From contig JAFLJS010000008.1 in the NCBI GenBank assembly GCA_022712895.1, positions 124,001-188,000 on the forward strand: a stretch of 64,000 bases of DNA, given 5' to 3'. The position numbers were made by a program, and so were the translations under genes. Positions 6,609 to 22,443 of the stretch are shown here, one piece after another (the first letter of the stretch is position 1; the number at the start of each line of letters is the position of its first letter). Under the pieces are notes generated by a model that saw nothing but the letters and a program-made list of their open reading frames with translations, did no database searches and was not told where the DNA came from. The DNA comes from Desulfocapsa sp. (GTDB taxonomy: Bacteria; Desulfobacterota; Desulfobulbia; Desulfobulbales; Desulfocapsaceae).

Positions 6609-6633
6609 CACAGACCTCCCCACATTCAGGAAA

Positions 6634-7986
6634 CTACTCCAAACCCAGTTTCTTAATTTTTCGCCACAAAGACACGCGGTCAATGTTCAGGGCTTTGGCC
6701 GCTGCAGTTTTATTATATGCAGTCTCCTTAAGAATCCACTCAATATACGACTTTTCCACTTCTTCCATGCTGGCATATTTTCCAGCACTTTTTCTAAAAG
6801 TCTGAATGTCCAGGCTCCGGAGATCGTCCGGTATCTGAGCAAGTCTCAGGATATTGCTATTGGCAAGGGCAACTCCCCGTTCAATAATATTTTCAAGTTC
6901 ACGTACGTTACCCGGAAAATCATAATGCTGTAAGGTATCAAGCACTTCCTGGCTGACCTCGGCCACCTCCTTATGCATCGAGGCGTTATATTTATCAAGA
7001 AAAGACTGAATAAGCAGTGGAATGTCATCCTTTCGCTCAGAAAGAGGTGGAATCTTCAGGGATACAACATTGATCCGGTAAAAAAGATCCTGCCTGAAAT
7101 TTCCCGACTTGACCTCCTTCTCAAGATCTCTATTAGTAGCAGCCACAAAACGCACATTCACCTTAACAGGAGTTGTCCCCCCCACCGGTATCACTTCCTG
7201 CTCCTGAAGAATCCTTAAAAATTTTACCTGCATGGACAGAGACATTTCAGTGATTTCATCAAGGAAAAGCGTTCCGCCATTGGCCATTTCCACCAGCCCT
7301 TTTTTGTCCTTGTCAGCACCTGTAAAGGCTCCCTTACTATGCCCAAAAAGTTCATTGGTCAACAGCTCCTCACCAAAGGCTCCACAGTTGATGGAAAGCA
7401 TGATTGCAGCATGGCGTGGACTTTCATTATGAATATACTTTGCCAGAAGCTCTTTTCCAGTACCGGACTCACCGCTGATAACGACACTGGTATCGGTGGC
7501 GGCAATCTGACTCGCCATTTCCAGAAGATCTTTCATGGCGCGGTTATGCGTGACGATTCGCAATTGCTCGTTACTGGTGCCGACCTGTTTTCGTAACTGT
7601 TCGACTTCACGAATCAGCTGATATTTCTGGGTAGCCTCATGCACCACCTTACGAACTTCATCCAGTTTAAAAGGCTTGGTAATGTAATGATAGGCCCCGG
7701 CCTTAAGAGCCGCGACAGCGGAATCAACAGTAGAAAACCCAGTGATCATAATTACTTCTGTTTGCGGACAGACAGATTTAACCCGCTTTAAGAGCTGCAT
7801 CCCATCCACCTGGGGCATCTTCAAATCAGTAAGAACAAGGGCAAACTCCTGCTTGTCCAAATAGGCCAGTGCCTGTTTCCCACTTTTGGCAGCGCTAACC
7901 TTGTACCCCTCTTTTTTAAGAATATGGCACAGGTTTTTAAGAGCTACAGCCTCATCATCAACAACTAAAATTTCGAAATCTGACAT
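6634..7986 (-). CDS. Sigma-54-dependent response regulator (NtrC family)
   Basis: 450 residues: an N-terminal receiver (phospho-acceptor Asp in LVLTDLKMPQVDG), a central AAA+ domain (Walker A GESGTGKE, sigma-54 contact loop GAFTGA, FLDEITEM Walker B region), and a C-terminal Fis-type helix-turn-helix (AAAKALNIDRVSLWRKIKKL). Its ATG overlaps the stop of the kinase gene (TGATG), so the two are translationally coupled. The pair diverges from the carbonic anhydrase/Ehr operon at 9688, which has a sigma-54 promoter. That operon is the obvious candidate target, but this is inferred from position. Confidence 0.95.
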   Translation of the reverse strand: MSDFEILVVDDEAVALKNLCHILKKEGYKVSAAKSGKQALAYLDKQEFALVLTDLKMPQVDGMQLLKRVKSVCPQTEVIMITGFSTVDSAVAALKAGAYHYITKPFKLDEVRKVVHEATQKYQLIREVEQLRKQVGTSNEQLRIVTHNRAMKDLLEMASQIAATDTSVVISGESGTGKELLAKYIHNESPRHAAIMLSINCGAFGEELLTNELFGHSKGAFTGADKDKKGLVEMANGGTLFLDEITEMSLSMQVKFLRILQEQEVIPVGGTTPVKVNVRFVAATNRDLEKEVKSGNFRQDLFYRINVVSLKIPPLSERKDDIPLLIQSFLDKYNASMHKEVAEVSQEVLDTLQHYDFPGNVRELENIIERGVALANSNILRLAQIPDDLRSLDIQTFRKSAGKYASMEEVEKSYIEWILKETAYNKTAAAKALNIDRVSLWRKIKKLGLE

Positions 7987-9383
7987 CAGGAAATCTCCTC
8001 ACCGGGCAATCTGATAATAAAGGCTGTTCCCTCATCCGTACTCTCAACACTGATACTGCCACCATGCTGAATAATAATGTCATGAACGATAAAAAGACCA
8101 AGACCGGAGCCCTGGCCTGTATCTTTTGTAGTAAAAAATGGATCAAAAATTTTCTTTTGCACCTGCCTGGGAATTCCGGGACCAGTATCACTGAGAACTA
8201 TTTTCAACTCAGTTTGATGCTGCCAGGCACGAATTCGGATTATCCCTCCATCAATCAGCACATCGAAACTATTTTTAAAGAGATTGATAAACACCTGCTG
8301 GATTTTTTGTTTATCCGCAAAAATGACAATATTATCAGAAATTATCAGCTGAATATCTAAATTTTCAGCTAGTTGTCCCCGAAGCAATACCAGCACTTCC
8401 TCGCAAAGAGACTTCAGTGAATAAGAGTCTCTATGGAATTTGTCTTCCCGGGCCAAAGGCAATAAAGTGTTAACAATGGCTGAAGCCCGATTGGTTTCAG
8501 AACTTATCTGTAAAGCTAACTCCCTGGCATATTCCTCATCCCTCTCCTCAAGTTCCTCAATGAGAATTTGCGCTGAACTGGATATATTTGACAGAGGATT
8601 ATTAAACTCATGGGCGACACCAGCCAGCATGATGCCAAGCGATGCCAGTTTTTCAGACCTGACCAGTTGCTGCTGACGCTTTTTCAGCTCCCGGCTCATC
8701 CGATTAAATGCATTAATCAGGCTATTGATTTCCCGGTTTGTACTGACAAAGGGTACTTCCACAAAATCACCAGCTGCAATGGTTGCAGCGTGCCGCTCCA
8801 GTTGCTTCAAAGAAGAAACAATTCCCCTGCCCAGTAGCACCGCAACCGAACTGAACACAAGTATAAGAAAAGGTAACAAAAATAAGAGTGTATTCCTGAT
8901 AAGAGCCAAAAGATTATGAATAGTCTGATGCTCCCGAATAATCAGCTCTTCCGTAAGAGTCGTGAGCCTGTTTCCTTGTTCACGAATGTCAACTGCCAGC
9001 AATGTCTCTTCTGCGGGAAAATTCCGGAACCTTGTAAACGTTTCCTGATAGCGTTGCAAGGCCTGTTGAACGGCATTAATTTCGGCAAGAGAACTCAAGC
9101 GCACAAAAACCTCCCTGTTGTCTGTCAATTCCTGAGTAGCCATGCCAAGATAGGAAGTCCACTCCTTCATGGAATTGCTATCTTGATACAGTAAATAGTT
9201 CTTTTCCATACGCCGTACCTCCAGAACAACTTCCAGAAAGATATCGGCTTTTTCGATGGAAAAATGCTTCTCCTCCAAGGTCCGAACAATCCAGAGCATA
9301 AGAACAGAGCTGGTAACCATAAATACAAATACCAAATAAAACCAGAATGTTATCTTACTCCTAATACCCCCTGGCTGCTTCAT
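7986..9383 (-). CDS. Membrane sensor histidine kinase
   Basis: About 465 residues. TM1 near residues 15-37, a periplasmic helical sensor region of about 130 residues rich in Glu/Arg, and TM2 near 165-188 are followed by a HAMP linker. The HisKA domain has [16 protein letters not shown] (phospho-His in HEFNN) and the HATPase domain has the usual N, G1 (DTGPGIP) and G2 (GSGLGLF) boxes. The start at 9383 is preferred over the ATG 15 bases upstream because AAGGAGAGAGT lies just before it. It is the cognate kinase of the overlapping sigma-54 regulator. The sensed signal is unknown; CO2, bicarbonate or pH are guesses from the neighbouring operon. Confidence 0.92.
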
Positions 9384-9459
9384 ACTCTCTCCTTTCATGC
9401 GCTCTCATCATTATCTGTATACCCTATCGGACACCCACCCTACCGCCATACGTTTCATT

Positions 9460-9487
9460 TTGCAACAACATGTTCGATGATGCAACA
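9460..9487. promoter_or_regulatory. Candidate activator site, paired TGCAACA repeats
   Basis: Two direct TGCAACA motifs (9461 and 9481), 20 bp apart, lie about 145 bp upstream of the -24 element at 9618. They share the TGCAAC core with the perfect inverted repeat at 9539-9553 and may form a second enhancer site for the adjacent NtrC-type regulator. Confidence 0.4.
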
Positions 9488-9538
9488 TTGATGTATACCC
9501 CTATTTCTAGGGACTAATTAGGCCTCTCCTCAAACTGC

Positions 9539-9553
9539 GTTGCATTTTGCAAC
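9539..9553. promoter_or_regulatory. Candidate enhancer (UAS), inverted repeat GTTGCA-TTT-TGCAAC
   Basis: A perfect 6+3+6 palindrome centred about 73 bp upstream of the -24 box, at a distance typical of NtrC-family enhancer sites. It lies in the divergent gap next to a sigma-54 regulator gene. Confidence 0.5.
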
Positions 9554-9617
9554 ATTTTCTTCCTACCCTCTCACCAAAGCCGTAACTATCTACCTGTATT
9601 TACTGACTATCCACTTA

Positions 9618-9633
9618 TGGCACAGGATATGCA
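9618..9633 (+). promoter_or_regulatory. Sigma-54 (-24/-12) promoter of the CA/Ehr operon
   Basis: TGGCACAGGATATGCA matches the TGGCAC-N5-TTGCA consensus, with the GG and GC doublets at the required spacing; only the first T of TTGC is replaced by A. It lies 55 bp before the Usp-like gene that opens the operon and downstream of the candidate enhancers. Confidence 0.72.
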
Positions 9634-9687
9634 ATGAATCGAGAAATCCTAGCAACACAACCAAGCTGAACTATTCAGGGAAAATGC

Positions 9688-10104
9688 GTGCAGCAGCAAA
9701 CAATCAGTAACAAGAAGGTGCTCCTGGTGGCCAACTCTTCACTTTTAAGTGCTGAGACACTGCTCCATGGCATCAACTTAAGTAAAAGAATGGACGCTTC
9801 TCTGGAAGTTATGCATCTCTTGAAACAGGAACCGACCGCTAAAGCTACTCAAAAGTTAAAAGAAAAAATAGCTGCACTCCAGCCCGAGGAGCCCGTTGCC
9901 TATATTCAACTGGTGAACGACAGAGGGCTCACCATAGAGACTGTGGACTATGCCAAAAACAGACGAAACATCATCTGCGTGGCACTTTGCCTGAGGGGTG
10001 AGGGAACTCCACACAGGAAAGGGATTCGTCAAAAAAAACTTAACGCAATCACACAATTACTGAATTGCCCCGTTGTGCTCTATACGGACAGTCCAGCGAA
10101 CTAA
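9688..10104 (+). CDS. Usp-like small protein, first gene of CA/Ehr operon
   Basis: 138 residues from a GTG start with CAGGGA upstream; an ATG four bases earlier is out of frame. The pattern KKVLLVANSSLLSAETLLHGINLSKRMDASLEVMHLL, an alpha/beta start followed by NIICVAL and CPVVLYT strands, resembles the universal stress protein fold. The ATP-binding G-x2-G-x9-G(S/T) loop is not recognisable, so it may be a non-nucleotide-binding Usp-like regulator. It is 55 bp downstream of the sigma-54 promoter and is followed at 20 bp by a small unknown gene. Confidence 0.7.
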   Translation: MQQQTISNKKVLLVANSSLLSAETLLHGINLSKRMDASLEVMHLLKQEPTAKATQKLKEKIAALQPEEPVAYIQLVNDRGLTIETVDYAKNRRNIICVALCLRGEGTPHRKGIRQKKLNAITQLLNCPVVLYTDSPAN

Positions 10105-10123
10105 TACAACCGGAGAGGAAAAA

Positions 10124-10366
10124 ATGAAAATTCTCATTGGTATTACCCAAAATATAGACGCAACCAGAAAATCAATCACAGCCCAGCATAAAGACCTGAG
10201 GACATCCACTGAAGCGGGGCCGTTTAAAACCAGGAAAGAAGCCTTAAACTGGCAAAATTTCATGATGAACAGACGGGATAACTACGAAGAGTTCAAGACC
10301 GCTTGCCCAGCAAGCAGTGAAGCATACTGGTTTGGAATTACCATGGAAAGTTCGGAAGTACACTGA
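10124..10366 (+). CDS. Small conserved-looking hypothetical protein
   Basis: 80 residues starting MKILIGITQNIDATRKSITA, with a strong GGAGAGGAA ribosome-binding site. Longer upstream starts would overlap the Usp-like gene and lack such a site. No known domain is recognised. It is soluble, moderately charged and aromatic near the end (EAYWFGITMES). Its position between the Usp-like and LCIB-like genes suggests a role in the same complex or its regulation. No function is proposed. Confidence 0.65.
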   Translation: MKILIGITQNIDATRKSITAQHKDLRTSTEAGPFKTRKEALNWQNFMMNRRDNYEEFKTACPASSEAYWFGITMESSEVH

Positions 10367-10399
10367 AAACCTCATCCACATAACTTGGAATAGAAGACC

Positions 10400-11581
10400 A
10401 TGAACACTCCCTATCATCAAGCTCATATTATTCGTAAACTTGCTCCATTTAAGGTGGACGGCCTGGCCATCCCTTACCCTGAATTTGTACCGAAACTCTA
10501 CAATTTCTGCATTTCGCTCGGCTTTCAAAAAGGTCTGATCATGCCGTCACGAGCCTTTTGTTCTGACGAAAACCAAGGCTGGCCAATTATTCTGTTAACC
10601 AAACACTTTGGAACCTTCCCCTTTAATCATGGCCGGGTTGGCGGCATTGTAGCCACCAGCCGCCATGGCCCTCATTCCCACCATGGGGAAGATTCGGTCC
10701 TCGTACAGGCAAGCCACGTCGGATATGACCCCCATAGTGGTATCTACGGCACCTGTACCCGACCCAAAATGCAAGGGACCTGCATTTCCGCCTCCTGCGG
10801 TAAAATTGCCCATGTTATCACCCCTTATCTTGAGCGCTATAAATCCGCCAGGACTCGGGTCTTCCTGCACCGGGATGATAAGGGCAATCGTCTGATTACC
10901 GTAAAAAATGCCTTTATAGACTTCGATATCCACCCAGTCAAAAATGGCATCGTGTTCAACCTGGAAAACATTGTCAAAATCAATCCTGATGGGAAAATAG
11001 TACCCATGTCCGCCATCAGTACCGGTCAAACCTATGAAGTTTCAGAAAAGTTCCGTAAACGAATAGACGCAACAGGTTACAAATGGAAAACAGGAAATGG
11101 AGAAATGATCGGGGATCACCTCACCGCCGACCTCTTTTATTTTCGGCAGGAATTTCACGAAACCGACGAATCGCTTCTGCTTGAAAAAAACCTTATTGAA
11201 TTTATGCCTACCATTGTCACTTCGCCTAACCCGTCATTACGGGCTGCAAAAATCAATATTCAGCTGGAATTTGTCCGTACCATGAATTCCATTCGCCGGG
11301 GCAAGGAATACGCAGGAAAAAACCTACTCTATATTGCTGGCCTCAATATCGATATATCAGAACAGTCAGACCACCCGGCAACCACCTATTTTGTTCCCTG
11401 GGCCGCCCATATAGAACTGAGAGGTGGTACACCAGCCGAGTACGAGCATCCTGTTGAGCAGGATCGCCTCTTTGAGCTGATCATGGCCCAAGACATTGAG
11501 AATCCCGAGCAGGCAGATCTGAAAGAACAGATCGGAAGAATGCTGGCAGCACCACGCTTTGATATTCGCTCGCCCAAATAA
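10400..11581 (+). CDS. LCIB-like (beta/theta-type) carbonic anhydrase homologue with C-terminal extension
   Basis: A 393-residue soluble protein. The first about 160 residues share the active-site pattern of limiting-CO2-inducible protein B (LCIB/theta-type carbonic anhydrases). C54-x-D56 lies in FCSDENQ, aligning with the CRDE of algal LCIB. H106 is in ASHVGYDP and C133 in SASCGK, giving the Cys-His-Cys zinc triad and the neighbouring Asp. GRVGGI and HSGIYG also fit the family. Residues about 160-393 are an extra region I do not recognise. It lies between small genes and the Ehr membrane subunits and shares their direction. Family assignment rests on motif recall, not a search. Catalytic activity is inferred; the Arg of the usual Asp-Arg dyad is not obvious. 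Confidence 0.62.
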   Translation: MNTPYHQAHIIRKLAPFKVDGLAIPYPEFVPKLYNFCISLGFQKGLIMPSRAFCSDENQGWPIILLTKHFGTFPFNHGRVGGIVATSRHGPHSHHGEDSVLVQASHVGYDPHSGIYGTCTRPKMQGTCISASCGKIAHVITPYLERYKSARTRVFLHRDDKGNRLITVKNAFIDFDIHPVKNGIVFNLENIVKINPDGKIVPMSAISTGQTYEVSEKFRKRIDATGYKWKTGNGEMIGDHLTADLFYFRQEFHETDESLLLEKNLIEFMPTIVTSPNPSLRAAKINIQLEFVRTMNSIRRGKEYAGKNLLYIAGLNIDISEQSDHPATTYFVPWAAHIELRGGTPAEYEHPVEQDRLFELIMAQDIENPEQADLKEQIGRMLAAPRFDIRSPK

Positions 11582-11662
11582 CACATCAGCAAAACATCTT
11601 AAAAAATTGACCAGCAAAATTTGCTGTGTTGAGAGAGTTAATTTTTTTCAGGAGGAGAATGA

Positions 11663-13618
11663 ATGGACACTTTGTTTGTGTCAATAGCCGTAATTCTTGC
11701 CGGAGGGGCAGCAGGACTGCTTTTTTACCGGCAATTCACACTGATGAAGCTGGTGACTATTATCACCACTTCGGCAGGTTGCGGCATTGGCTTGTATTTT
11801 GTTTTACCAAAACTACTACAGGGAACGACAGCGACAGTCAGCTATAATTGGATGCACACCTTGACCCTTTTTTTCCAACTTGACAGCGTATCGCTCTTCT
11901 TTTTGATGCCAATCTTTCTCATCCCTCCTCTGACATTAGTATACAGCTTCCACTATTTGGAAAACAGAGAAAAAAGACTCCGAACCGGCGTCAATTATTT
12001 TTTCTTCAGCATACTCATCGCTTCCATGGCTATGGTGGTTATGTCTGCGAACATGATCACCTTTCTGCTCGCCTGGGAACTGATGAGCATCTCCTCTTTC
12101 TTTCTTGTCATGTATGACTATGAAAGTTCTGAGAATCGTAAGGCGGGCTATCTCTATTTTATATTTGCCCAAGGGGGAGCGATGCTCCTCTTTGCCGCAT
12201 TTGCTCTGGTTCACAGCCATTCTGGCAGCTTTGATTTCAATAGTTTTGCTGCCATCCCGGAACAGGCCAAACTACTAATCTTTATCCTGGCTTTCCTGGG
12301 ATTCGGCTCCAAGGCCGGGATCTTTCCGCTCCATATCTGGCTGCCCAAAGCCCACCCGGCAGCACCAAGCCATGTCTCGGCCATCATGTCCGGTGTCATG
12401 ATTAAAATGGGAATCTACGGAATTTTCCGGATGTACCTACTCCTTGACCCCGCAACCCCCGTCATCGGTCAGATCGTTCTGGTAACCGGTATGGTTACAG
12501 GGATTCTCGGAGTTGTTTATGCCCTTGCCAAACAAGATATTAAACAACTGCTGGCGTATAGCTCAGTGGAGAACATCGGCATTATCCTTATCGGTCTTGG
12601 AATTGGCATGATGGGAGTATCCGGACAGAATCAGGCCATGGCCTTTTTCGGTTTTGCCGGAGCCTTTCTGCATGTCTTTAACCATTCCATCTTCAAATCT
12701 CTCCTCTTTATGGGAGCCGGTTCCGTGCTCCATAAGGCCAAAAGCAAAAATATTGAAGAGCTTGGCGGCTTAATGAAACGGATGCCTGTTACCGGACGTT
12801 CATTTCTTGTTGGCTCAGTAGCCATTTCAGGCCTGCCCCCATTCAGTGGCTTCATTGGTGAGTTCCTTATCTACTACGGAGCCTTTCAGGGGCTGACCGG
12901 AGAAAAGCTGCCCTTTATCCTGACCGTGCTGGCCATTATCTCTCTGGCAGTGATAGGTGGTATGGCTTCGGCCTGTTTTACCAAAGTTGTTGGTCTCGCT
13001 TTTCTTGGTGAACCAAGAACTGAACAGGCTGACAATGCCAGTGAATCCGGCATTGCCATGGGAGCAGTTATGTCAATCATGGCTCTCAGTTGTCTTCTTA
13101 TTGGCGTACTCCCGGAACCCTTTGTCCGCCTTGCCTTTAGTGGCATTCAGGATATTACAGCCGTTAGCAGTTTTAACAGTGACTCCTTTCTGCTCATTGT
13201 CCGACATCTTTCCAAGACAGCGATGCTCTTTATCGCCATCTTTATTGCCGTCAGCCTCTTTCGTAAAATACTCTATCTTAAAAAAGAGATCGGCAGTGGC
13301 AGTACCTGGGGTTGTGGATTCACCCAGCCCACTGTCCGCATGCAATACACCGGGACATCATACGCCTATGAAATGGTAGAATTTTTCAAACCGTTTGTGC
13401 CCATAAAAAATGCATATACCGGTGTCAAAAAGATATTCCCCGGTAAGACCACCTGGCAGAGCGAAGTTACAGACATCGCCGAAACTGGTTACCAGCGCTA
13501 TTTAACCACGCCATTGCTAAGTTTTATCACTAAACTGAAATGGATTCAACATGGCCATATTCAGCTTTATATCGGCTATATCATCGTGGCTATTATTGTC
13601 CTGCTTCTCTTTTTATAA
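11663..13618 (+). CDS. Ehr/Hyf-like complex, HyfB-type proton-translocating membrane subunit
   Basis: 651 residues with about 14-16 membrane segments, of the NuoL/M/N-MrpA/D antiporter family and closest in layout to HyfB/HycC. Diagnostic stretches are FLLAWELMSISSFFLVMYDYE (Glu in TM5), GFGSKAGIFPLHIWLPKAHP (Lys and the broken helix TM7) and ASHVSAIMSGVMIKMGIYGIF-like TM8. DIKQLLAYSSVENIG and the later HxxxKSLLFMGAGS region follow. The C terminus carries an extra soluble/membrane part (about 530-651), as in HyfB. GGAGGAGAA precedes the ATG. It follows the LCIB-like gene by 81 bp and opens the six-subunit membrane-complex block. Confidence 0.9.
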   Translation: MDTLFVSIAVILAGGAAGLLFYRQFTLMKLVTIITTSAGCGIGLYFVLPKLLQGTTATVSYNWMHTLTLFFQLDSVSLFFLMPIFLIPPLTLVYSFHYLENREKRLRTGVNYFFFSILIASMAMVVMSANMITFLLAWELMSISSFFLVMYDYESSENRKAGYLYFIFAQGGAMLLFAAFALVHSHSGSFDFNSFAAIPEQAKLLIFILAFLGFGSKAGIFPLHIWLPKAHPAAPSHVSAIMSGVMIKMGIYGIFRMYLLLDPATPVIGQIVLVTGMVTGILGVVYALAKQDIKQLLAYSSVENIGIILIGLGIGMMGVSGQNQAMAFFGFAGAFLHVFNHSIFKSLLFMGAGSVLHKAKSKNIEELGGLMKRMPVTGRSFLVGSVAISGLPPFSGFIGEFLIYYGAFQGLTGEKLPFILTVLAIISLAVIGGMASACFTKVVGLAFLGEPRTEQADNASESGIAMGAVMSIMALSCLLIGVLPEPFVRLAFSGIQDITAVSSFNSDSFLLIVRHLSKTAMLFIAIFIAVSLFRKILYLKKEIGSGSTWGCGFTQPTVRMQYTGTSYAYEMVEFFKPFVPIKNAYTGVKKIFPGKTTWQSEVTDIAETGYQRYLTTPLLSFITKLKWIQHGHIQLYIGYIIVAIIVLLLFL

Positions 13619-13648
13619 ACAACAGAATAATACGACTAGGAATATACA

Positions 13649-14566
13649 ATGGAATCTGTACTAGCATTTTGCTTTGCTGTTGCAATTGCGCCTCTTCTGC
13701 CAGCTGTAATCCAGAAAACAAAGGCCTATTTTGCCGGTAAGCAGGGGCCGCCTCTGCTTATCAACTACTATACCATGATCAAACTTTTCAAAAAGGGTTC
13801 GGTCTATTCAACCAGTACCAGCTTTGTTTTCAAGCTGGGACCAGTGGTGGGATTTTCCACCAGTCTGATGATGTTGCTCTACTTTCCCATGGCGGAAGTG
13901 GCTCCGATCTTCTCCTTTCACGGCGATGTACTCATCCTTTTTTACCTGATGGGACTGGGACGCTTTTTTACAATCCTGGCAGCACTTGATACGGCCTCAC
14001 CCTTTGAAGGAATGGGTGCTGCCCGTGAGGCCTTCTTTTCCACTCTTGCGGAAATGACGATCTTTGCCATACTCATTCTTTTCTTCAAACTGACAGGCAG
14101 TTTGAGCTTTTACGAATTCTTTTCAGGAGACCAGGCTATTGATCTTATGGGAGAATACAGCGCACTGCTCATTCTGGTGGTTGTGGGTCTTTATGTAGTC
14201 ATGCTCACGGAAAATTCACGGGTTCCGGTGGATGATCCGGCAACTCACCTTGAGCTCACCATGATCCATGAAGCAATGATTCTTGACCATTCCGGACCGG
14301 ATCTGGCACTGATTGAGATGGGAGCCTGGTTTAAACTTCTCTTTTACTCCGGTTTTCTTGCCCGTCTCATCGATCCCTTTCATGCTGAGAATGTCATCGT
14401 CAACGGTCTGCTCTTCTATGCTGTCGTGACCTTTATCTACATCAGCATCGGTGTGGTTGAATCAATTACCGCCAGATACAAGATGCCTCAGGTTCCTAAA
14501 TTTATCCTGACACCATTTATCCTGGTCTTCTTTGTAATCATCTTAAGCATGGGAGTAATGCAATGA
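13649..14566 (+). CDS. Ehr/Hyf-like complex, HyfC/NuoH-type membrane subunit
   Basis: 305 residues with about eight membrane helices, of the NuoH/HyfC/EchB family that anchors the hydrophilic arm and forms the start of the ion path. The family loop is seen in ENSRVPVDDPATHLELTMIHEAM, with acidic residues in the EVPFDxxE position, and LGPVVGFSTS early on. Its last four bases overlap the next gene (ATGA), so it is translationally coupled with the HyfE-like subunit. Confidence 0.9.
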   Translation: MESVLAFCFAVAIAPLLPAVIQKTKAYFAGKQGPPLLINYYTMIKLFKKGSVYSTSTSFVFKLGPVVGFSTSLMMLLYFPMAEVAPIFSFHGDVLILFYLMGLGRFFTILAALDTASPFEGMGAAREAFFSTLAEMTIFAILILFFKLTGSLSFYEFFSGDQAIDLMGEYSALLILVVVGLYVVMLTENSRVPVDDPATHLELTMIHEAMILDHSGPDLALIEMGAWFKLLFYSGFLARLIDPFHAENVIVNGLLFYAVVTFIYISIGVVESITARYKMPQVPKFILTPFILVFFVIILSMGVMQ

Positions 14567-15249
14567 TTGAACTATCCAGTGCTTTTTTCTCTATTAATCA
14601 TTTGTCAGATGCCCTTATGTCTCTAACCATTTTGTCGGTTCTGATGTCGCTGGGTTCAAACAGACTCATGGCTCTTGTGAAAATCATGGCCTTTCAGGGT
14701 ATTGTGGTTTCCCTGACTCCGCTTTTCCTGGAACATCATGAATCCATGAACTTCAGTTCCATAATTCTGCTCCTGATCATGTTGTTCATCAAAGGAATGC
14801 TTATTCCCGGTTTCATGTACGCTGCAGTGAAAAAAATCAAAATTCGGCGGGAAGTTGAGCCAATCATCGGCTATCACGCCTCGCTCTTTGCCGGTTTGCT
14901 TTTTATCCTGCTGGGAGCCTTCATTGCCAATCGCCTGCATATTTCCTTACCAGTTGAAAATGATCTGCTGCTGATCACTGCTATCACCACACTCTCCGCC
15001 GGACTCTTCCTCCTTATGAGCCGCAGAAAGGCCATCACCCAGGTTATCGGATACCTGATGATGGAGAATGGCATTTACCTGATCGGCACGGCCCTTGCCA
15101 AGGAGACCCACACCATGTATGTGGTTGAATTCGGGGTCTTGCTAGATCTCCTGGTGGGAATTATGATTATGGGGATTGTCCTCCATAATATCAACTCTTC
15201 CTATAATGATGTTGATACAGCTCTGCTCGGTCAACTTAAAGATAATTAA
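14563..15249 (+). CDS. Ehr/Hyf-like complex, HyfE-type membrane subunit
   Basis: 228 residues with about six or seven membrane helices. The C-terminal half (YLMMENGIYLIGTALAKE, with the Glu typical of NuoK/HyfE helices) matches the HyfE family, which carries a NuoK-like module. It starts within the stop of the HyfC-like gene and is followed after 16 bp by the HyfF-like gene. Expected role is part of the ion-translocation path of the complex. Confidence 0.88.
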   Translation: MIELSSAFFSINHLSDALMSLTILSVLMSLGSNRLMALVKIMAFQGIVVSLTPLFLEHHESMNFSSIILLLIMLFIKGMLIPGFMYAAVKKIKIRREVEPIIGYHASLFAGLLFILLGAFIANRLHISLPVENDLLLITAITTLSAGLFLLMSRRKAITQVIGYLMMENGIYLIGTALAKETHTMYVVEFGVLLDLLVGIMIMGIVLHNINSSYNDVDTALLGQLKDN

Positions 15250-15265
15250 GGTATAAGGTTATAAC

Positions 15266-16696
15266 ATGTTAGAACTTACAACTATCATCCCTTTCTTTGC
15301 CGGGATTATTGCCATATTCATGCCGGTTCGGGTGGGACGCGGCATTCTGGTGCTGACCGCCCTACTGCATCTGCAGTTAACGGTCATGGGCTGGCTGGGG
15401 AAAATCACCCCCGCTTTTCCCGAATATTTTGCCGTGACTGATGAAGGTATGCTGATCCTGCTGGTCACCTCATTTGTGTTTCTCTTTATCTCCATCTACG
15501 CTGTGTCGTATATGAGTGAAACTGAGATCTCCAGCGAGCCAATCTACACGGGCTGCACACTCTTCTTTTTATCCACCATGACCATGGTTACCATGGCCGA
15601 TCACATCATCATGCTCTGGATTGCAATTGAAGCCACAACGCTTATGAGTGCGCCGCTGATTTTCCTTCACCGCTCCAAAACAGCCCTTGAAGCCACCTGG
15701 AAGTATGTGATGATCTGCTCAGTGGGTATTGCCCTTGCACTGCTTGGCTGCTTTTTTGTGGTTATGTCCATGGATCTTGGTGGCATTCATGTGCCCATCA
15801 CCTTCAGCTCCCTTGGAACTGTTGCAGACAAGCTTGATCCTGTATGGCTCAAGGCCGGATTTATCTTTCTTGTTATCGGCTATGGCACCAAAATGGGCCT
15901 TGCTCCCATGCACACCTGGCTGCCCGATGCCCATAGTGAGGCTCCAAGCCCCGCCTCTGCGCTTCTCTCCGGTGCTCTCTTAAACTGTGCCTTCCTCGGT
16001 GTATACCGCTGTCACCAGTTGCTCTATCAGGCTGGTCTTGGTGATTTTTCAAGTAATATCCTGGTGGGTTTTGGTTTGTTTTCCATGCTGATTGCCGCCA
16101 TCTTCATATTCCACCAGACAGGCTACAAAAGGATGCTTGCCTATTCCAGTATTGAGAATATGGGAATCATCGCCTTTGGTATCGGTATCGGAGGACTTGC
16201 CACCTACGGTGCCATGCTCCATCTTATTCATCACTCACTCATCAAATCTTCACTCTTTCTTTCATCCGGTAATGTTCTACTGGGATATGGTAGTAAGCTT
16301 GTTAATAAAACCGGTAATATGGCCAAACTCTTTCCCAAAACCTTTACCGCATTTTTTGCTGGATTTGCCGGGATATCCGGCTTTCCACCCTTTGGTATTT
16401 TTATCAGCGAGCTGCTTATTATTATGGGTGCCTTCCAGCAGGGCAGAAGCGTCGTTGTCAGTATCTTTATCTTTGCACTGATTCTGGTCTTTGCCGGAGC
16501 ATCCCGTCTGGTGACCAAGATGTGTTTTGCCCCCTGTGAAAATCCTGAGATTCTGGTGAAGGAAAACTGGGCCAGAACCCTACCTTCTTTCGCCCTCCTG
16601 GCGGCATCACTGATCCTCTGTATCTGGCTACCGGACAGTATTTATGAAACAATAATTTCGGCAATTGCCACCATTGGAGGAAGCGTCAATGGCTAA
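15266..16696 (+). CDS. Ehr/Hyf-like complex, HyfF-type antiporter-like membrane subunit
   Basis: 476 residues with about 14 membrane helices; a second NuoM/N-like subunit. Motifs include LWIAIEATTLMSAPLIFLHR (TM5 Glu), GTKMGLAPMHTWLPDAHSE (TM7 Lys and broken helix) and KRMLAYSSIENMGII. Having both this and the HyfB-like subunit gives the complex two candidate proton channels. Its last eight bases overlap the large-subunit start. Confidence 0.9.
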   Translation: MLELTTIIPFFAGIIAIFMPVRVGRGILVLTALLHLQLTVMGWLGKITPAFPEYFAVTDEGMLILLVTSFVFLFISIYAVSYMSETEISSEPIYTGCTLFFLSTMTMVTMADHIIMLWIAIEATTLMSAPLIFLHRSKTALEATWKYVMICSVGIALALLGCFFVVMSMDLGGIHVPITFSSLGTVADKLDPVWLKAGFIFLVIGYGTKMGLAPMHTWLPDAHSEAPSPASALLSGALLNCAFLGVYRCHQLLYQAGLGDFSSNILVGFGLFSMLIAAIFIFHQTGYKRMLAYSSIENMGIIAFGIGIGGLATYGAMLHLIHHSLIKSSLFLSSGNVLLGYGSKLVNKTGNMAKLFPKTFTAFFAGFAGISGFPPFGIFISELLIIMGAFQQGRSVVVSIFIFALILVFAGASRLVTKMCFAPCENPEILVKENWARTLPSFALLAASLILCIWLPDSIYETIISAIATIGGSVNG

Positions 16697-18197
16697 TATA
16701 ATGCATATTCAAAACAACGAACGGTTCAATCGGGCCAATATTCCCCACCTGGGTTTTGACTCTTTTCGTAAGGAGTTACTGGATCTGGCAGCAAAAGGCG
16801 GACAGATTGTCCAGTTTTTTGCATACGAAGACCAGGGCACATACAAACTGCTGGCTGTCATGCGGCAGATCAACAAACTCTTTGTTACCGGCTGCAACGC
16901 CCCGGATAATTTTGAATCACTGACAGCAGATTCTGAAAAATTCCATATGTTCGAAAGGGAAATCGGTGAGCAATACGGACTAAAAGCCGAAGGACATCCC
17001 TGGCTGAAAATGGTGCGTTACCACAAAAACTACACCGGAAAAAAAGATGTTTTCGGTAATGATTACAGTGAAGATATTCCCGGCAAATACCCCTACTTTA
17101 CCGTGGAAGGCGAGACTGTCCACGAAGTAGCCGTTGGACCAGTTCACGCCGGAATCATCGAACCTGGCCATTTCCGCTTTCAGTGCTGCGGCGAGCGTGT
17201 TTTCCATCTGGAAATCCAACTTGGCTATCAGCATCGTGGTGTTGAAAAACTGCTGCAAACGGTACCGTTCAAGCGTCTGCCCATCATTGCTGAAACCATT
17301 GCCGGGGATACCACCATCGGCCACAGTCTCTGTCAGGCACAAGCCATTGAAGCACTGGCTGACCTGAAAGTTGATGAGGGCGCCTCCATTGTGCGGACCA
17401 TCGCCCTTGAAATGGAACGTATTGCCAACCACATTGGTGATCTTGGCGCATTGAGCCTCGATGTAGCCTTCAACCCTCCAGCTGCCTACTTTGGCAGAAT
17501 CAGGGGCGAATACCTGAATCTCAGCCAGATCCTTGGCGGTAACCGTTTCGGCCGTGGGCTGGTAAGACCCGGTGGCGTCACCCATGTGATGGGCGATGAA
17601 CAAAAACAACTGCTGCGGGACAAACTGGCTGAACTCACGCCGGAAGTGGAACATGTTAACGACCTGATATTCTCAGCACCCAGCGTTCGCGGCCGTTTCG
17701 ACGGTACCGGAACGGTAACTTATGCAAATGCCGAAAAAATCGGACTGGTCGGTTATGCCGGCAGAGCATGCGGACTTCCCTATGATGCCAGAGTCACCTT
17801 CCCCACTGAGTGTTACGGTGACCTGCCCGCCAATCAGAATAAAAAAATCGATGGTGATGTCTGTTCACGAGCCACTGTGCGGCGAGAGGAGATCATGCAC
17901 TCCACGGTGCTGATCAATACCCTGCTTGACAGAAGTGAAGAGGCCGCGAGCTATATTCCTCAGGAGGTAGAGCTTGCACCTGATTCCTTTGTCGTATCCA
18001 TCAATGAAGGCTGGCGCGGAGAAGTTTCCCACTGCCTCCTCACCGATGCCAAGGGCGACATTCTCCGTTACAAAGTCAAGGATCCATCCTTCCACAACTG
18101 GACTGGACTAGCTCTTTCTCTGCGTGACACAGGAATTTCAGACTTCCCACTATGCAATAAGAGCTTTAATCTCTCTTACTGCGGATTCGATATATAA
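16689..18197 (+). CDS. Ehr/Hyf-like complex, HyfG-type large subunit (NuoC+NuoD fusion) lacking Ni ligands
   Basis: 502 residues from ATG 16689, placed by GGAGGAAG seven bases upstream. Residues about 20-130 resemble the NuoC-like N-terminal module of HycE/HyfG; about 150-502 are the NiFe-hydrogenase/NuoD-like domain (GYQHRGVEKLL). In active group 4 hydrogenases the N-terminal nickel motif is CGxC. Here the aligned stretch is IAGDTTIGHS, with Ala205 and Thr208 in place of the cysteines. The C-terminal DPCxxC is also replaced (KSFNLSYCGFDI). The subunit therefore should not bind NiFe and fits the 'hydrogenase-related' (Ehr) class. What it reduces or oxidises, or whether it only couples conformations, is unknown. 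Confidence 0.88.
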   Translation: MANIMHIQNNERFNRANIPHLGFDSFRKELLDLAAKGGQIVQFFAYEDQGTYKLLAVMRQINKLFVTGCNAPDNFESLTADSEKFHMFEREIGEQYGLKAEGHPWLKMVRYHKNYTGKKDVFGNDYSEDIPGKYPYFTVEGETVHEVAVGPVHAGIIEPGHFRFQCCGERVFHLEIQLGYQHRGVEKLLQTVPFKRLPIIAETIAGDTTIGHSLCQAQAIEALADLKVDEGASIVRTIALEMERIANHIGDLGALSLDVAFNPPAAYFGRIRGEYLNLSQILGGNRFGRGLVRPGGVTHVMGDEQKQLLRDKLAELTPEVEHVNDLIFSAPSVRGRFDGTGTVTYANAEKIGLVGYAGRACGLPYDARVTFPTECYGDLPANQNKKIDGDVCSRATVRREEIMHSTVLINTLLDRSEEAASYIPQEVELAPDSFVVSINEGWRGEVSHCLLTDAKGDILRYKVKDPSFHNWTGLALSLRDTGISDFPLCNKSFNLSYCGFDI

Positions 18198-18208
18198 TAG
18201 GTGCATCC

Positions 18209-18952
18209 ATGTTAAAAGTTATTAAGAACAGATTAGAACAGGGGTATCGTACCTCCAAGTACCCTAAGGAACCCATTGAACTGTATAAACGGTTTCGAGG
18301 ACTGCCAAAGGTAAACAAAAAATGCGAAACCGAACTGGTTAAACGCTGCGCCGATGCCTGTCCTCAGGACGCCATTAATACCGAGACAAAACAAATTGAT
18401 CTTGGTCGCTGCGTCTTTTGCGGCTTGTGCGAAACCCTCTCCCAAGGAGAGTTTGCACAGTTCAGCAGTAACTTTGAAATGGGAACTTCCAGTCGTGACG
18501 ATCTCTTTACCCACGGCGACTTACCAGCTCTTGCTGAACATTCCAAAAAACATTTCAAAAAACTCTTTGGTCGCTCTCTGCAACTGCGCCAAATATCAGC
18601 CGGTGGTTGTAACGCCTGTGAGGCGGATACCAATGTTCTCAATACGCCGTTTTTTGACTTGCAGCGTTTTGGTATTCAGTTTGTCGCCTCACCACGCCAT
18701 GCCGACGGTATCCATGTCACCGGGCCAATCTCCCTGAATATGCGCCAGGCAACAATCACCACCTGGGAGTCTATTCCAAGTCCAAAGGTTGTTATTGCCA
18801 GCGGAGCATGTGCTATTTCCGGCGGGCCTTTTCATGGGAGTAGTGAAATTGTCGGGGACTTAAACAGCTTGATTCCCGTGGATTTGTATATCCCGGGATG
18901 TCCTCCCCACCCCCTGACCACGCTGCATGCCCTACTGAATTATTTTAAATAA
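18209..18952 (+). CDS. Ehr/Hyf-like complex, HyfI/NuoB-type small subunit fused to ferredoxin-like domain
   Basis: 247 residues. The N-terminal part (about 45-80) has a reduced ferredoxin-like pattern, RCADACPQDAI and GRCVFCGLCE, probably one 4Fe-4S cluster. The C-terminal part (about 130-247) is NuoB-like with GGCNACE, GACAISGG and PGCPPHP, the ligands of the N2-type cluster. This merges the jobs of HyfH and HyfI. It is the last gene of the membrane-complex block and the only iron-sulfur subunit seen, so the electron path is short and no NADH, formate or hydrogen module is encoded nearby. Confidence 0.88.
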   Translation: MLKVIKNRLEQGYRTSKYPKEPIELYKRFRGLPKVNKKCETELVKRCADACPQDAINTETKQIDLGRCVFCGLCETLSQGEFAQFSSNFEMGTSSRDDLFTHGDLPALAEHSKKHFKKLFGRSLQLRQISAGGCNACEADTNVLNTPFFDLQRFGIQFVASPRHADGIHVTGPISLNMRQATITTWESIPSPKVVIASGACAISGGPFHGSSEIVGDLNSLIPVDLYIPGCPPHPLTTLHALLNYFK

Positions 18953-18971
18953 ACAGCTTACCCTCATTCTC

Positions 18972-19030
18972 GAAGTCGACCCCACCACTACCTGTGATGT
19001 TCATAACATCTGCTCCTCCGGGTCGACTTC
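18972..19030. repeat. Long-range inverted repeat after Ehr block
   Basis: GAAGTCGACCC (18972-18982) and GGGTCGACTTC (19020-19030) are perfect 11-bp inverted repeats. They flank a 37-bp loop that contains a second stem, GATGTT/AACATC. It could be a terminator or processing hairpin separating the Ehr genes from the carbonic anhydrase gene. No T-run follows, so the function is open. Confidence 0.5.
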
Positions 19031-19187
19031 CTTGCTCCCTTCACGTACCTGTTTCACTACGGCTCCCTCCCCGTTCTCATTGCATTTTTTCAAAAAAAGA
19101 ACTATGAATGACGATTGTTGCAAACTGAAACGAAGTACAAAATTTTGAACTTTATAATATAACAGATTTATCAGCCGGGAGAACACC

Positions 19188-19778
19188 ATGGGAAAATCAA
19201 TCATGCCTAGCCCTGAGTTGGCATTACAGCAACTTTTGGACGGCAATAAGCGCTTTGTTGACACATCACTCACCCATCCTAATCAGGACAGCGAGCGACG
19301 CATTGCCCTGGGCGATGGGCAGGCCCCCTTCGCCGCAGTCCTGGCCTGCGCTGATTCCCGCGTGCCACCAGAGGTTCTTTTTGACCAGGGGCTGGGCGAT
19401 CTTTTTGTTGTTCGGGTTGCCGGCAATATTCTTAACGATCAACTGCTGGGTAGTCTGGAGTATGCCGCAGCTCACCTGGATACCCCACTCATCGTAGTTT
19501 TGGGACACACCAATTGCGGTGCCATTGGTGCAGTAGCTCAAGGAGCAAAACTGGAAGGTCATATTGCATCACTGATACCAGCCATCCAACCTGCCGTTGA
19601 CAAAGTTCGGGATCAGGAAGGTGATCTTACCGATAATGCAGCACGTGAAGTAGCCAGGATGACAGCGATCCAACTTCAGGAATCCCAACCAATTATAGCG
19701 AATCTCGTCAAGGAAGGTAAACTCAAAGTCGTTCCCGCTTTTTATGAACTTGAGAGCGGTGAAGTAAGTCTTTTGTAA
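19188..19778 (+). CDS. Beta-class carbonic anhydrase
   Basis: 196-residue cytoplasmic beta-carbonic anhydrase interconverting CO2 and bicarbonate. The zinc ligands and catalytic dyad are plain: C54-x-D56-x-R58 in ACADSRV, and H107-x2-C110 in GHTNCGA. The VRVAGN signature lies between. Length is normal for the family. The start is chosen at ATG 19188, after CCGGGAGAACACC. It lies 235 bp after the Ehr block in the same direction, with its own weak -10 (TATAAT near 19156) and a rho-independent terminator after it. It may be separately transcribed, but its position supports a CO2/bicarbonate theme for the region. Confidence 0.96.
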   Translation: MGKSIMPSPELALQQLLDGNKRFVDTSLTHPNQDSERRIALGDGQAPFAAVLACADSRVPPEVLFDQGLGDLFVVRVAGNILNDQLLGSLEYAAAHLDTPLIVVLGHTNCGAIGAVAQGAKLEGHIASLIPAIQPAVDKVRDQEGDLTDNAAREVARMTAIQLQESQPIIANLVKEGKLKVVPAFYELESGEVSLL

Positions 19779-19831
19779 GCCGTTATAAATCTACTTGGCA
19801 TATCCGCTAACATCAGCTACAGTTTAACTAT

Positions 19832-19857
19832 AAGGCACCTGAAAAGGTGCCTTTTTT
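19832..19857 (+). terminator. Rho-independent terminator of carbonic anhydrase gene
   Basis: AAGGCACC-TGAAAA-GGTGCCTTTTTT: an 8-bp stem with a short loop and a T6 run, about 55 bp after the stop codon. Confidence 0.9.
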
Positions 19858-19958
19858 GATTTCGAACCAAACACTCACACGAGGAACCTTCACATCAACT
19901 GAAGCCTCCCCATAAGCGCGCCCCGGCAATTACGAACGGAGCAAGAGAAAGAAACACC

Positions 19959-22034
19959 ATGAAACGTAATCCGTTGGGTGCACTTCTTGACAGAACACGC
20001 CCACCCGAAGGACTCTTTTCGCTTATTCTCGCCGTTTTCGTCGGCGGTGCCACTGGCCTGGCTGCCGTATTCTTTATTCATCTCATCACCGTTATCCAGA
20101 ACTCCTCTTACAACACGATTCAATTCCTCTTTCCACATCTTGGTATATGGAGCTATGTCTTTGTACCCATTGGAGGTGCCCTGCTTGCCGGCCCACTAAT
20201 TTCCTGGTTTGCAAAGGAAGCAAAGGGACATGGTGTACCGGAAGTTATGCAGGCTCTGGTTCAGCGAGGAGGAAAGATCCGTCCCCGTGTTGCCATTACA
20301 AAGATCATAACAGCTGCACTCTGTATTGGTACTGGAGGGTCGGCTGGCCGTGAAGGCCCCATTGTTCAAGTGGGTTCAACCCTTGGTTCTGCCACAGGGC
20401 AACTTCTGCATCTCTCGGATGACCGTATTAAAAACCTCGTCGCCTGCGGTGCTGCTGCTGGAATTGCAGCTACTTTTAATGCACCCATTGCCGGAGTAGC
20501 TTTTGCCATTGAAGTACTCATGTGTGGATTGCAGGTGCGAATGTTTGGCAACGTTGTTATCGCAGCAGTTTCTGCATCCATTGTCAGTCAAATGTACCTC
20601 GGTGATCGGCCGGCTTTCACCGTCCCTTCCTACAGTATGGAATCACCAGTAACTCTCCTCTTCTATCTGCTCCTTGGACTGACTGCGGCAGTCGTCGGTG
20701 TCTTTTTTATTCGCATGCTCTCCTATTTTGAAGATCTTTTTGACAACTGGGCATTTCCCACCGCTCTTAAACCCGCCGTAGGAGCACTACTCCTTGGTCT
20801 GCTTGGGTTCGTGTACCTGTGGCTTCCCGGTCTCAGTTCCAGCAACGCCACCGAGTTTGAGCTCGGAATGCCGCTAATTGAAAACATCCCTCATATGTAT
20901 GGTTCCGGCTTTACCTTTATTGAGGAAGCACTCCATGGCAATATCAATTTTTGGATTCTGACCCTACTGGTTTTCCTCAAACCACTTGCCACCTCTTTTA
21001 CCCTTGGTTCCGGGAATTCAGGTGGTGTCTTTGCTCCTTCCCTGTTCATTGGTGCAATGCTTGGCGGTGCCATGGGAGAACTTTTTTATGCCTGGATGCC
21101 TGAGCTGGCGGGCCCTCCCGGCGCTTATGCTCTGGTGGGAATGGCTGCAGTATTCTCCGCCTGTGCCCGCGCCCCATTGACAGCCATGCTCATCGTCTTT
21201 GAAATGAGTAATGACTATGCCCTCATTTTACCCCTTATGCTCACGGCTGTTACCGCTTCTTACCTTGCCCATTATTTACATCCGGAATCGATCTACACCA
21301 TCAAACTGGTGAAACGGGGGATACGGTTCGAGCAAGGCCGGGATCTGGACATTATGCAGAGCGTACACGTTCATGAGGTGATGAACAGAAAACCCCTCAG
21401 CATCCACAAAAACCAATCGCTGGCCGTGCTATATCAACAGTTTCAGGAAACAAATCTCCTTGGTTTTCCCGTTCTTGATGAACATGATAAACTGTGGGGG
21501 ATTGTCAGCCTCCAGGATTTAGAAAACACACTTGCCGAGCCCACATTGCAGTTACGGAATGCAAAAGTCGAAGACCTGGCAACCGTCGATCCCTTAACAG
21601 TTTATGCAGATGAGCCTATTTGGGCCGCAATCCAGAAAATGGCCCCCAGAGATCTTGCACGACTACCGGTGATTTCACGCTCAACCCAGGGGAAACTGAT
21701 CGGGCTAATCAGTCGCAGTGATATCCTTCGGGCCTATGATGTTGCCATCGTACGGAAACAACGAGGACAGTTACTTGAGGAACATATCGCCCTGCGACGG
21801 GAGCAAAACAACGAATCTAATGAATTTCACCTAAGAAATGGGCAAAATGCTGTGGGGAAACATCTACAAGACTTAAACCTTCCACTGTCAGTGAAAGTTA
21901 TCTCACTGGACAGGGAAGGGAGTGTACATATTCCCCGTGGAGATACACTCTTTACCAGCGGAGACATTATCTCTATTTTTGGTGATAAACACTCAATTGA
22001 GGAGGCGCGCACCGAATTTCAGCGGGAACAATAA
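19959..22034 (+). CDS. CLC-family anion channel/antiporter with CBS pair and RCK_C domain
   Basis: 691 residues. The membrane part (about 18-430) has the CLC filter motifs GHGVPEV, GREGP (gating-type Glu132) and GSGNSGGVFAPSLF. Two CBS domains follow (about 455-580), then a C-terminal TrkA_C/RCK_C-like domain (about 610-690) that may bind a regulatory ligand. It would conduct or exchange chloride or another small anion for protons across the inner membrane. It follows the beta-carbonic anhydrase after its terminator. A link to bicarbonate balance is possible but only inferred from position. Confidence 0.93.
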   Translation: MKRNPLGALLDRTRPPEGLFSLILAVFVGGATGLAAVFFIHLITVIQNSSYNTIQFLFPHLGIWSYVFVPIGGALLAGPLISWFAKEAKGHGVPEVMQALVQRGGKIRPRVAITKIITAALCIGTGGSAGREGPIVQVGSTLGSATGQLLHLSDDRIKNLVACGAAAGIAATFNAPIAGVAFAIEVLMCGLQVRMFGNVVIAAVSASIVSQMYLGDRPAFTVPSYSMESPVTLLFYLLLGLTAAVVGVFFIRMLSYFEDLFDNWAFPTALKPAVGALLLGLLGFVYLWLPGLSSSNATEFELGMPLIENIPHMYGSGFTFIEEALHGNINFWILTLLVFLKPLATSFTLGSGNSGGVFAPSLFIGAMLGGAMGELFYAWMPELAGPPGAYALVGMAAVFSACARAPLTAMLIVFEMSNDYALILPLMLTAVTASYLAHYLHPESIYTIKLVKRGIRFEQGRDLDIMQSVHVHEVMNRKPLSIHKNQSLAVLYQQFQETNLLGFPVLDEHDKLWGIVSLQDLENTLAEPTLQLRNAKVEDLATVDPLTVYADEPIWAAIQKMAPRDLARLPVISRSTQGKLIGLISRSDILRAYDVAIVRKQRGQLLEEHIALRREQNNESNEFHLRNGQNAVGKHLQDLNLPLSVKVISLDREGSVHIPRGDTLFTSGDIISIFGDKHSIEEARTEFQREQ

Positions 22035-22058
22035 AAAGAGTACAGGAAACGCTTCCCA

Positions 22059-22097
22059 CTCACCGCTCTAGCGTAAACTTATTTACCGCTAGCGAGT
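22059..22097. terminator. Hairpin after CLC gene
   Basis: CTAGCGTAAA-CTTA-TTTACCGCTAG with outer ACTC/GAGT pairs forms a stem-loop between the CLC stop and a convergent small gene. It lacks a T-run, so it may act as a weak bidirectional terminator. Confidence 0.4.
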
Positions 22098-22099
22098 AC

Positions 22100-22288: not shown

Positions 22289-22325
22289 TTGTTCTCTCCG
22301 CATTATGGATACTAGCGACACTACA

Positions 22326-22352: not shown

Positions 22353-22443
22353 ACAATGCGAAGAGATCTGCAACAATAATGCCGATGTTACAGGGGGACT
22401 CGAATTACAAAATTGACAGTTGCGTTTCGACCACGGGAGTCCG

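Follow-up and report, generated by a model that had tools for sequence, protein, structure and literature searches.

What is a carbonic anhydrase of the LCIB type, a family known from algal CO2-concentrating mechanisms, doing directly in front of the genes for an Ehr complex in a sulfur-metabolising anaerobe? The question is raised by a 64,000-nucleotide stretch of Desulfocapsa sp. DNA (assembly GCA_022712895.1, contig JAFLJS010000008.1, positions 124,001 to 188,000; hereafter the window). Ehr complexes (energy-converting hydrogenase-related) are found in Geobacter, comammox Nitrospira, ammonia-oxidising archaea and Margulisbacteria. In the passages of the literature relied on here their function (PMC10284858) and their benefit (PMC10432482) are called unknown and links to formate are suggested (PMC6349859, PMC7894505), and a conserved partner enzyme gives a testable handle on them. 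The pairing of an LCIB-type carbonic anhydrase (CA) gene with Ehr is real, recurrent and optional.

Between positions 9688 and 18952 on the forward strand lie nine closely packed, co-directional genes, all present in the order given by an earlier reading of the same DNA (hereafter the sequence-only reading), so that its gene block is confirmed. In the last gene that reading had recognised a NuoB-like part, which stands, and had missed the N-terminal ferredoxin-like (HyfH) part. The nine genes, with the Pfam result for each where one applies, are:

9688..10104, +: Usp-like gene with a GTG start (Usp 0.016, below cut-off)
10124..10366, +: gene for a small protein of about 80 residues (DUF4170 0.048; no Pfam family over its cut-off)
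10400..11581, +: LCIB-like beta-class CA homologue of 393 residues (named from its fold, profile-profile match and conserved site)
11663..13618, +: HyfB-like antiporter subunit of Ehr (Proton_antipo_M 2.9e-60)
13649..14566, +: HyfC/NuoH-like subunit (NADHdh 9.8e-29)
14563..15249, +: HyfE/NuoK-like subunit (Oxidored_q2 3.5e-4, below cut-off)
15266..16696, +: HyfF-like antiporter subunit (Proton_antipo_M 1.7e-47)
16689..18197, +: HyfG/NuoCD-like large subunit without N-terminal Ni-binding cysteines (Complex1_49kDa 2.4e-29)
18209..18952, +: fused HyfH (ferredoxin-like)/HyfI (NuoB-like) subunit (Oxidored_q6 1.3e-25)

From the Usp-like gene to HyfHI the successive intergenic gaps are 16, 33, 81, 30, −4, 16, −8 and 11 bp, and because only 81 bp separate the LCIB-like gene from HyfB, co-transcription of the two is likely in the window.

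Fold and zinc site of the LCIB-like protein

Against the Pfam family LCIB_C_CA (PF18599) the window copy scores 17.5 bits, below the curated cut-off of 25, and judged by sequence it is a divergent relative of LCIB rather than a called member of the family. With matches admitted up to E 1, 19 of the 21 rows of an alignment (A1) match PF18599, the best at 9e-6. A search of the genome of origin at E 0.01 returns the window gene (0.0029), and the search at E 0.001, which gave no match in that genome or in any of 14 control genomes, is uninformative. Only chance matches were obtained when the sequences of solved structures were searched with the protein or with the A1 profile. Compared profile against profile, the protein and seven canonical LCIBs from bacteria of its phylum match at E 4.2e-7, in an alignment that pairs C54-x-D56, H106 and C133 with their counterparts.

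The predicted structure points the same way. A first model, made from 21 rows, has a predicted local distance difference test score (pLDDT) below 50 for residues 46-95 and yet reaches Z 13.8-16.1 to the LCIB family, and in a second model, made from a 33-row alignment, the weak region is mended (mean pLDDT 90, predicted template-modelling score 0.88). This second model matches six LCIB-family entries at Z 16.7-21.6, namely PtLCIB4 (5b5y; Z 21.6, root-mean-square deviation 3.1 over 226), 6kfs (21.5), PtLCIB4 mutants (21.4 and 19.8), LCIB (16.9) and LCIC (16.7). The next matches are beta-CAs at 9.7 and 9.0, the CS2 hydrolase 3ten gives 6.9, and a Foldseek search with the model finds the LCIB fold at E 2.7e-9. 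The sequence-only reading had said that a predicted structure lacking a CA-like fold would speak against its proposal; the predicted structure has that fold.

The zinc site consists of C54, H106 and C133, accompanied by D56, H89 and R121, with the motif C54-S-D56-E57. C54, D56, H106 and C133 are invariant in the 33 rows of alignment A3, which includes five canonical LCIBs and leaves out two degenerate copies (L082 and L083). In the larger set of 58 distinct rows, C54, D56, E57 and H106 are kept in 55, C133 and R121 in 56, and H89 in 49, the three rows without the first four residues being one at a contig end and the two degenerate copies. H89 and R121 align with His162 and Arg194 of LCIB, the two members of each pair being 32 residues apart by a hand count, and both LCIB residues are named as important in the part of a review consulted (PMC5876011). 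Between Cys and Asp stands a Ser, as in PtLCIB4, an enzyme that appears constitutively active according to a second review in the part consulted (PMC9614477); LCIB, LCIC and the S47R mutant read C-R-D-E, and the canonical LCIBs of this phylum also carry Arg there. The protein shares with the LCIB/LCIC/PtLCIB family the fold, the C/H/C zinc ligands, the Asp and the His/Arg pair, and is probably an active CA. It differs from canonical bacterial LCIBs in its length (393 against about 236 residues): 159 of its residues have no counterpart in any of the five canonical A3 rows, most of them in 193-259, 278-307 and a tail from 351. None of its length resembles a membrane segment, the highest Kyte-Doolittle mean over 19 residues being 0.94. 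Fold, profile-profile match and conserved residues together bear out the LCIB-like identity and the C-x-D/H/C triad proposed by the sequence-only reading.

A recurrent and optional pairing with Ehr

The subunits encoded downstream belong to a hydrogenase-4-like set. HyfB, HyfE and HyfF match the NCBIfam models for hydrogenase 4 subunit B (6.1e-170), membrane subunit (6.6e-23) and subunit F (6.1e-98), each below its cut-off, and the nearest solved chain to HyfB is formate hydrogenlyase subunit 3 (1.1e-69). The proton-channel glutamates and lysines noticed from sequence are there, E139 and K217 in HyfB and E122 and K209 in HyfF, within the usual antiporter motifs. The loss of nickel ligands is equally clear: HyfG can be aligned with HycE, which is subunit 5 of formate hydrogenlyase, and with Mbh alpha; in the N-terminal Ni-cysteine region ERVCGICGFAHS of formate hydrogenlyase is replaced by ETIAGDTTIGHS at HyfG 202-213, and at the C-terminus NLS stands opposite the DPC-type end of HycE (motif DPCxxC), with one lone cysteine after it. 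The fused HyfHI carries the cysteine motifs GGCNAC, GAC and PGCPP. Since HyfG is without the Ni cysteines, the complex is of the Ehr type and not a hydrogenase; Hyf/Ech-like membrane and peripheral subunits are present, and the large subunit has no Ni-binding CxxC.

Relatives of the LCIB-like gene came from three sources. Of 96 genomes close to that of the window 26 gave a match, and of 395 spread over the phylum 11 did, the window's own counted in both; a GTDB-based collection added 28 loci, which were found via exact peptides of the window protein and are close relatives. Merging of near-identical reading frames (shared 12-mers above 85%) reduced 106 genes to 58. Of these distinct genes, the window's among them, 40 lie directly upstream of HyfB on the same strand, meaning that a HyfB reading frame opens within 0.8 kb and with the two degenerate copies counted in; 12 do not, and 6 end with their contig. 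The 12 comprise four distant relatives (L084, L087, L088, L089), the first tandem copy in L040 and seven close relatives (L043, L048, L090, L095, L098, L122, L123). Where intact operons were measured, 64-1045 bp lie between the LCIB-like gene and the first Met of HyfB. The expectation that the gene would be found beside Ehr genes in relatives is upheld by this search. Among the 96 near genomes, HyfHI of at least 64% identity is present in 23 of the 26 with the LCIB-like gene and in 15 of the 70 without (Fisher p 2.4e-9, from a hand tally that includes the genome of origin; the genomes are related and p is only indicative). The closest named LCIB-like relatives belong to Desulfocapsa and Desulfobulbaceae bins, and two loci of the cable bacterium Electrothrix carry the gene, one of them (L046) with the whole LCIB-like and Ehr pair and the other being L048. 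PMC13047784, a paper about genes of cable bacteria, has in its main text no word beginning with carbonic anhydrase, bicarbonate or hydrogenase.

On a tree of HyfG and HyfHI, a clade of 24 operons (Shimodaira-Hasegawa-like approximate likelihood ratio, SH-aLRT, 86) has an intact LCIB-like gene throughout, and its sister clade of 13 (SH-aLRT 81) has nine operons without the gene, two with a degenerate copy and two with an intact one. Two more rows without the gene fall outside both clades, and a second Ehr lineage has two operons with it and two without. Before the tree was made, L104, L105 and L092 were dropped as coming from the same genomes as L033, L049 and L041, L067, L068, L073 and L077 for an upstream part that is cut off, and L094 for having no HyfHI; the later loci L122-L132 lie outside it. 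The LCIB-like gene is at most an optional module of Ehr operons.

The degenerate copies (L082:4208-5323 and L083:9453-10610) have lost C54, D56, H106 and C133 and are still open and beside HyfB. They are 36% identical to each other, with pN (nonsynonymous) 0.45 and pS (synonymous) 0.71, and their pN is 2.6-3.9 times higher than that of the four Hyf subunits tested from the same two loci (0.117-0.173). A third genome looked at in their genus (G055) is without the gene. These values suggest relaxed, perhaps not absent, selection, with either a remaining structural role or decay.

The second, only distantly related Ehr lineage, which has two HyfB genes, is preceded by an LCIB-like gene in L041 (on a contig shared with L092) and in L091, in both with one gene between the LCIB-like gene and HyfB, in L041 that for a helix-turn-helix/PTS-EIIA protein. 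Compared with the window, L041 is 37 and 40% identical in HyfB, 44% in HyfG and 73-74% in the LCIB-like protein. L041 clusters in the LCIB tree with L044, a locus of the first Ehr type (SH-aLRT 95), and on that tree two changes are needed for the second type; the gene or the adjoining complex has therefore been exchanged at least once with the pairing kept. Of all the observations, this second-lineage pairing is taken to argue most strongly that LCIB and Ehr are functionally linked.

Neighbouring genes and regulation

Around the nine genes lie the following features, those for the two-component proteins and the CA with their Pfam evidence:

6634..7986, −: NtrC-type response regulator with receiver, sigma-54 activator AAA+ and Fis helix-turn-helix domains, divergent from the operon (Sigma54_activat 1.6e-68, Response_reg 1.7e-31, HTH_8 5.1e-12)
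7986..9398, −: sensor histidine kinase (HAMP, HisKA, HATPase)
9618..9633, +: candidate sigma-54 type −24/−12 promoter, TGGCACAGGATATGCA, 10 of 12 positions to the consensus
19188..19778, +: ordinary beta-CA, a lineage-local neighbour (Pro_CA 3.9e-39)
19832..19853, +: terminator-like stem with a T tail, 3′ of the beta-CA gene, from the promoter/terminator scan

The beta-CA gene, which starts 235 bp after the end of HyfHI, had been counted as a member of the system by the sequence-only reading. That membership is rejected, as a beta-CA stands within 1.5 kb downstream of only 2 of the 40 other HyfHI genes that have sufficient sequence, a set that includes LCIB-less and second-lineage operons, and is local to near relatives; it also occurs in L067. 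The small gene of about 80 residues was dropped as a partner of LCIB, being kept in some LCIB-less Ehr operons as well; it is doubled in L013, L070 and L080. Of 51 other loci, 5 have a Usp-like gene no more than 1 kb upstream. The gene at 19959-22034, after the beta-CA, reads as a ClC-type channel that carries CBS domains, so that a ClC-type anion channel lies near two CA-type genes in the window. Upstream, at 2323-4761, is an ATP-binding cassette transporter of the nitrate/thiamine-precursor type (again by reading), and a similar one at L054:108-2686 lies about 0.5 kb from the LCIB-like gene of that locus.

Anion carriers recur around the LCIB-like gene. A SulP gene comes next after HyfHI in L034, L035, L037, L039 and L042 (L034 checked in Pfam), and in L053 and L056 the LCIB-like gene has a divergent SulP neighbour of the same type (L053 checked in Pfam). 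In the LCIB-less operons L072 (9501-11660) and L076 (3082-5244) a SulP gene occupies the place before HyfB, possibly as a functional replacement. Where Ehr is missing, the LCIB-like gene stands beside a SulP gene in L090, between genes of the Na:sulfate-symporter and CitMHS families in L095, and beside a Na/H exchanger gene in L122 and L123 (L122 tested in Pfam). The Na:sulfate-symporter family is also found beside the distant relatives L087 and L088. SulP and Na:sulfate-symporter-type carriers can move bicarbonate or sulfate, and the carrier neighbourhood suits a role in inorganic carbon, without being proof of it. Separately, a carrier of the Na:sulfate-symporter family stands beside 6 of 9 canonical C-R-D-E LCIB loci of the phylum (L107-L111 and L115; by eye, L109 tested), which is possibly a CO2/bicarbonate system of its own.

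The window operon is probably switched on by the sigma-54 promoter and the divergent two-component system, as suggested by the promoter scan. The candidate TGGCACAGGATATGCA lies 54 bp before the Usp start. Six orthologous loci were scanned (L029-L033, L097), and in each of them a site with 10-11 of 12 matches precedes the Usp gene; the LCIB-like gene or operon has one upstream in 1 of 7 other loci scanned (L100), and nine sites as good as these occur in the whole window, both strands counted. In the window the promoter/terminator scan overall yielded no more than in shuffled sequence. Relatives of the kinase/NtrC pair also accompany some LCIB-less Ehr operons, and the regulator therefore probably belongs to Ehr. 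The TTGCAAC repeats at positions 9460 and 9547 may serve as activator sites. A search of Rfam over window positions 6000-24000 gave no match at gathering scores, and a plasmid search gave none.

Possible roles and comparison with known CO2-hydrating pumps

The reading tentatively preferred here, at a little less than an even chance, is that the LCIB-like protein is a site-complete LCIB-family beta-CA serving as an optional cytoplasmic partner of a Ni-less, proton-pumping Ehr in the handling of inorganic carbon or pH. Electrons would probably enter Ehr through its ferredoxin-like domain, and HyfB and HyfF would pump protons. Hydration of CO2 by the LCIB-like protein beside the membrane would deliver bicarbonate to the cytoplasm and protons to the inside entry of the pump, and pumping would pull hydration forward and keep the cytoplasmic pH up, as proposed for NDH-1MS, after which anion carriers such as SulP may move or balance the bicarbonate. 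Catalytic activity, docking, ferredoxin as the donor, the direction and the energy coupling are what we infer. The energy-coupled CO2/bicarbonate interpretation of the sequence-only reading accordingly keeps the LCIB identity, the zinc site and the adjacency to Ehr on its side and loses the beta-CA. The bolder proposal, a third and independently assembled redox-driven machine of sulfur-metabolising anaerobes, cable bacteria among them, in which LCIB is docked on a Ni-less hydrogenase-4-like complex and hydration is made one-way by pumping and yields bicarbonate, is rather unlikely; if true, it would provide the first function for one class of Ehr complexes.

Several observations weigh against a fixed or coupled partnership. 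The 43 Ehr operons on the HyfG and HyfHI tree divide into 28 with an intact, 2 with a degenerate and 13 without an LCIB-like gene, on a tree that over-represents LCIB-positive loci and draws its LCIB-less members only from relatives in window-near genomes; the claim that the gene lies inside the Ehr operon holds as adjacency, and its place inside the complex is weakened. Among placed close relatives 8 of 46 are not beside HyfB, one being the first of two tandem copies, and in most measured loci 100 to about 1000 bp separate the LCIB-like gene from HyfB. L043, L048 and L098 show, by eye, no carrier beside the gene, and the SulP and Na:sulfate-symporter carriers may transport sulfate in these organisms. 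Three recombinant LCIB homologues were without CA activity according to the part of a review consulted (PMC5876011), and bicarbonate would leak back through a CA that is freely reversible. The hallmarks of gated hydration described for DAB2 in the part of PMC13144422 consulted, Leu for the site Gln/His, Ile for the ion-pair Glu and a membrane finger, are not mirrored here, H89 and HyfB E139 being kept and no membrane-like stretch being present.

Because signs of a DAB-like gate are missing, the strongest rival is an ordinary, freely reversible CA of the cytoplasm whose tie to Ehr is co-expression alone, for the balance of pH and of CO2 and bicarbonate, and which is neither bound to the complex nor energetically coupled to it. 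It is a realistic possibility, consistent with the occurrence of the LCIB-like gene and Ehr each alone, with Ehr-less copies beside Na/H exchanger, Na:sulfate-symporter-family or SulP genes, and with a site resembling that of an active, ungated CA. The strong preference for the place before HyfB and the pairing of a second Ehr lineage speak against it, and the retention of a zinc-site-less copy in two operons is hard to explain by it. Those two copies speak for a mainly structural or regulatory Ehr subunit, for example a bicarbonate sensor, in which catalysis is secondary: they remain open with pN below pS, and the inactive recombinant homologues (PMC5876011) would agree. Such a role is nevertheless improbable, as the zinc site is otherwise nearly invariant, and the raised pN of the pair relative to the Hyf subunits, together with the absence of the gene from G055, looks like decay.

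The sulfur metabolism of the hosts, which include Desulfocapsa and cable bacteria, brings in a sulfur-gas hydrolase (for COS or CS2) built on the beta-CA fold, Ehr then working in sulfur metabolism, and 3ten does share the wider fold at Z 6.9. This is a distinctly improbable reading, since the LCIB family, which is linked to CO2, is much closer (Z up to 21.6) and its His/Arg pair is kept as H89 and R121. Least credible of all is a neighbourhood without function, in which the arrangement is operon drift by common descent. Most loci do belong to related Desulfobulbales or to deltaproteobacterial bins without placement, but the pairing holds down to about 60% LCIB-like identity and extends to the second Ehr lineage.

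The frequent LCIB-type CA gene in front of Ehr, read as an optional cytoplasmic partner, hints at a third way of tying CO2 chemistry to a proton pump. No link between an LCIB-like protein and Ehr appears among the open-licence PMC matches listed, a scope outside which subscription papers and preprints fall, and "carbonic anhydrase" is absent from the main texts of PMC6349859 and PMC7894505, both of which discuss Ehr. Known Ehr complexes have the same Hyf/Ech-like set without Ni cysteines, and the one in the window differs by the LCIB-type CA gene in front. NDH-1MS, with CupA/CupS, likewise joins a complex I-like redox proton pump to an isoform-specific CO2-hydrating zinc protein and, in the part of PMC6981117 consulted, is proposed to drive hydration by pumping away the released protons. 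There CupA is described as alpha-helical, unlike known CAs, with the zinc ligands His130/Arg135, and NdhF3 as having non-polar residues in its lateral channel, whereas the window system has a beta-CA fold and antiporter Glu/Lys motifs. The DAB/DAC systems (DabA-DabB, MpsAB) likewise combine a beta-CA-like zinc protein with a NuoL-like subunit; the window system differs in having a whole redox complex, in keeping the site His and in showing no membrane finger, and DabA (PF10070) has no match in the genome of origin, 2 of 14 control genomes having one. The distinctness from the DAB and NDH-1 types proposed by the sequence-only reading is supported on both counts, and if the coupling is true, complex I-type pumps would have been combined with CO2-hydrating zinc proteins of different origin on at least three occasions, in NDH-1MS, in DAB and, in anaerobes, in the system described here.

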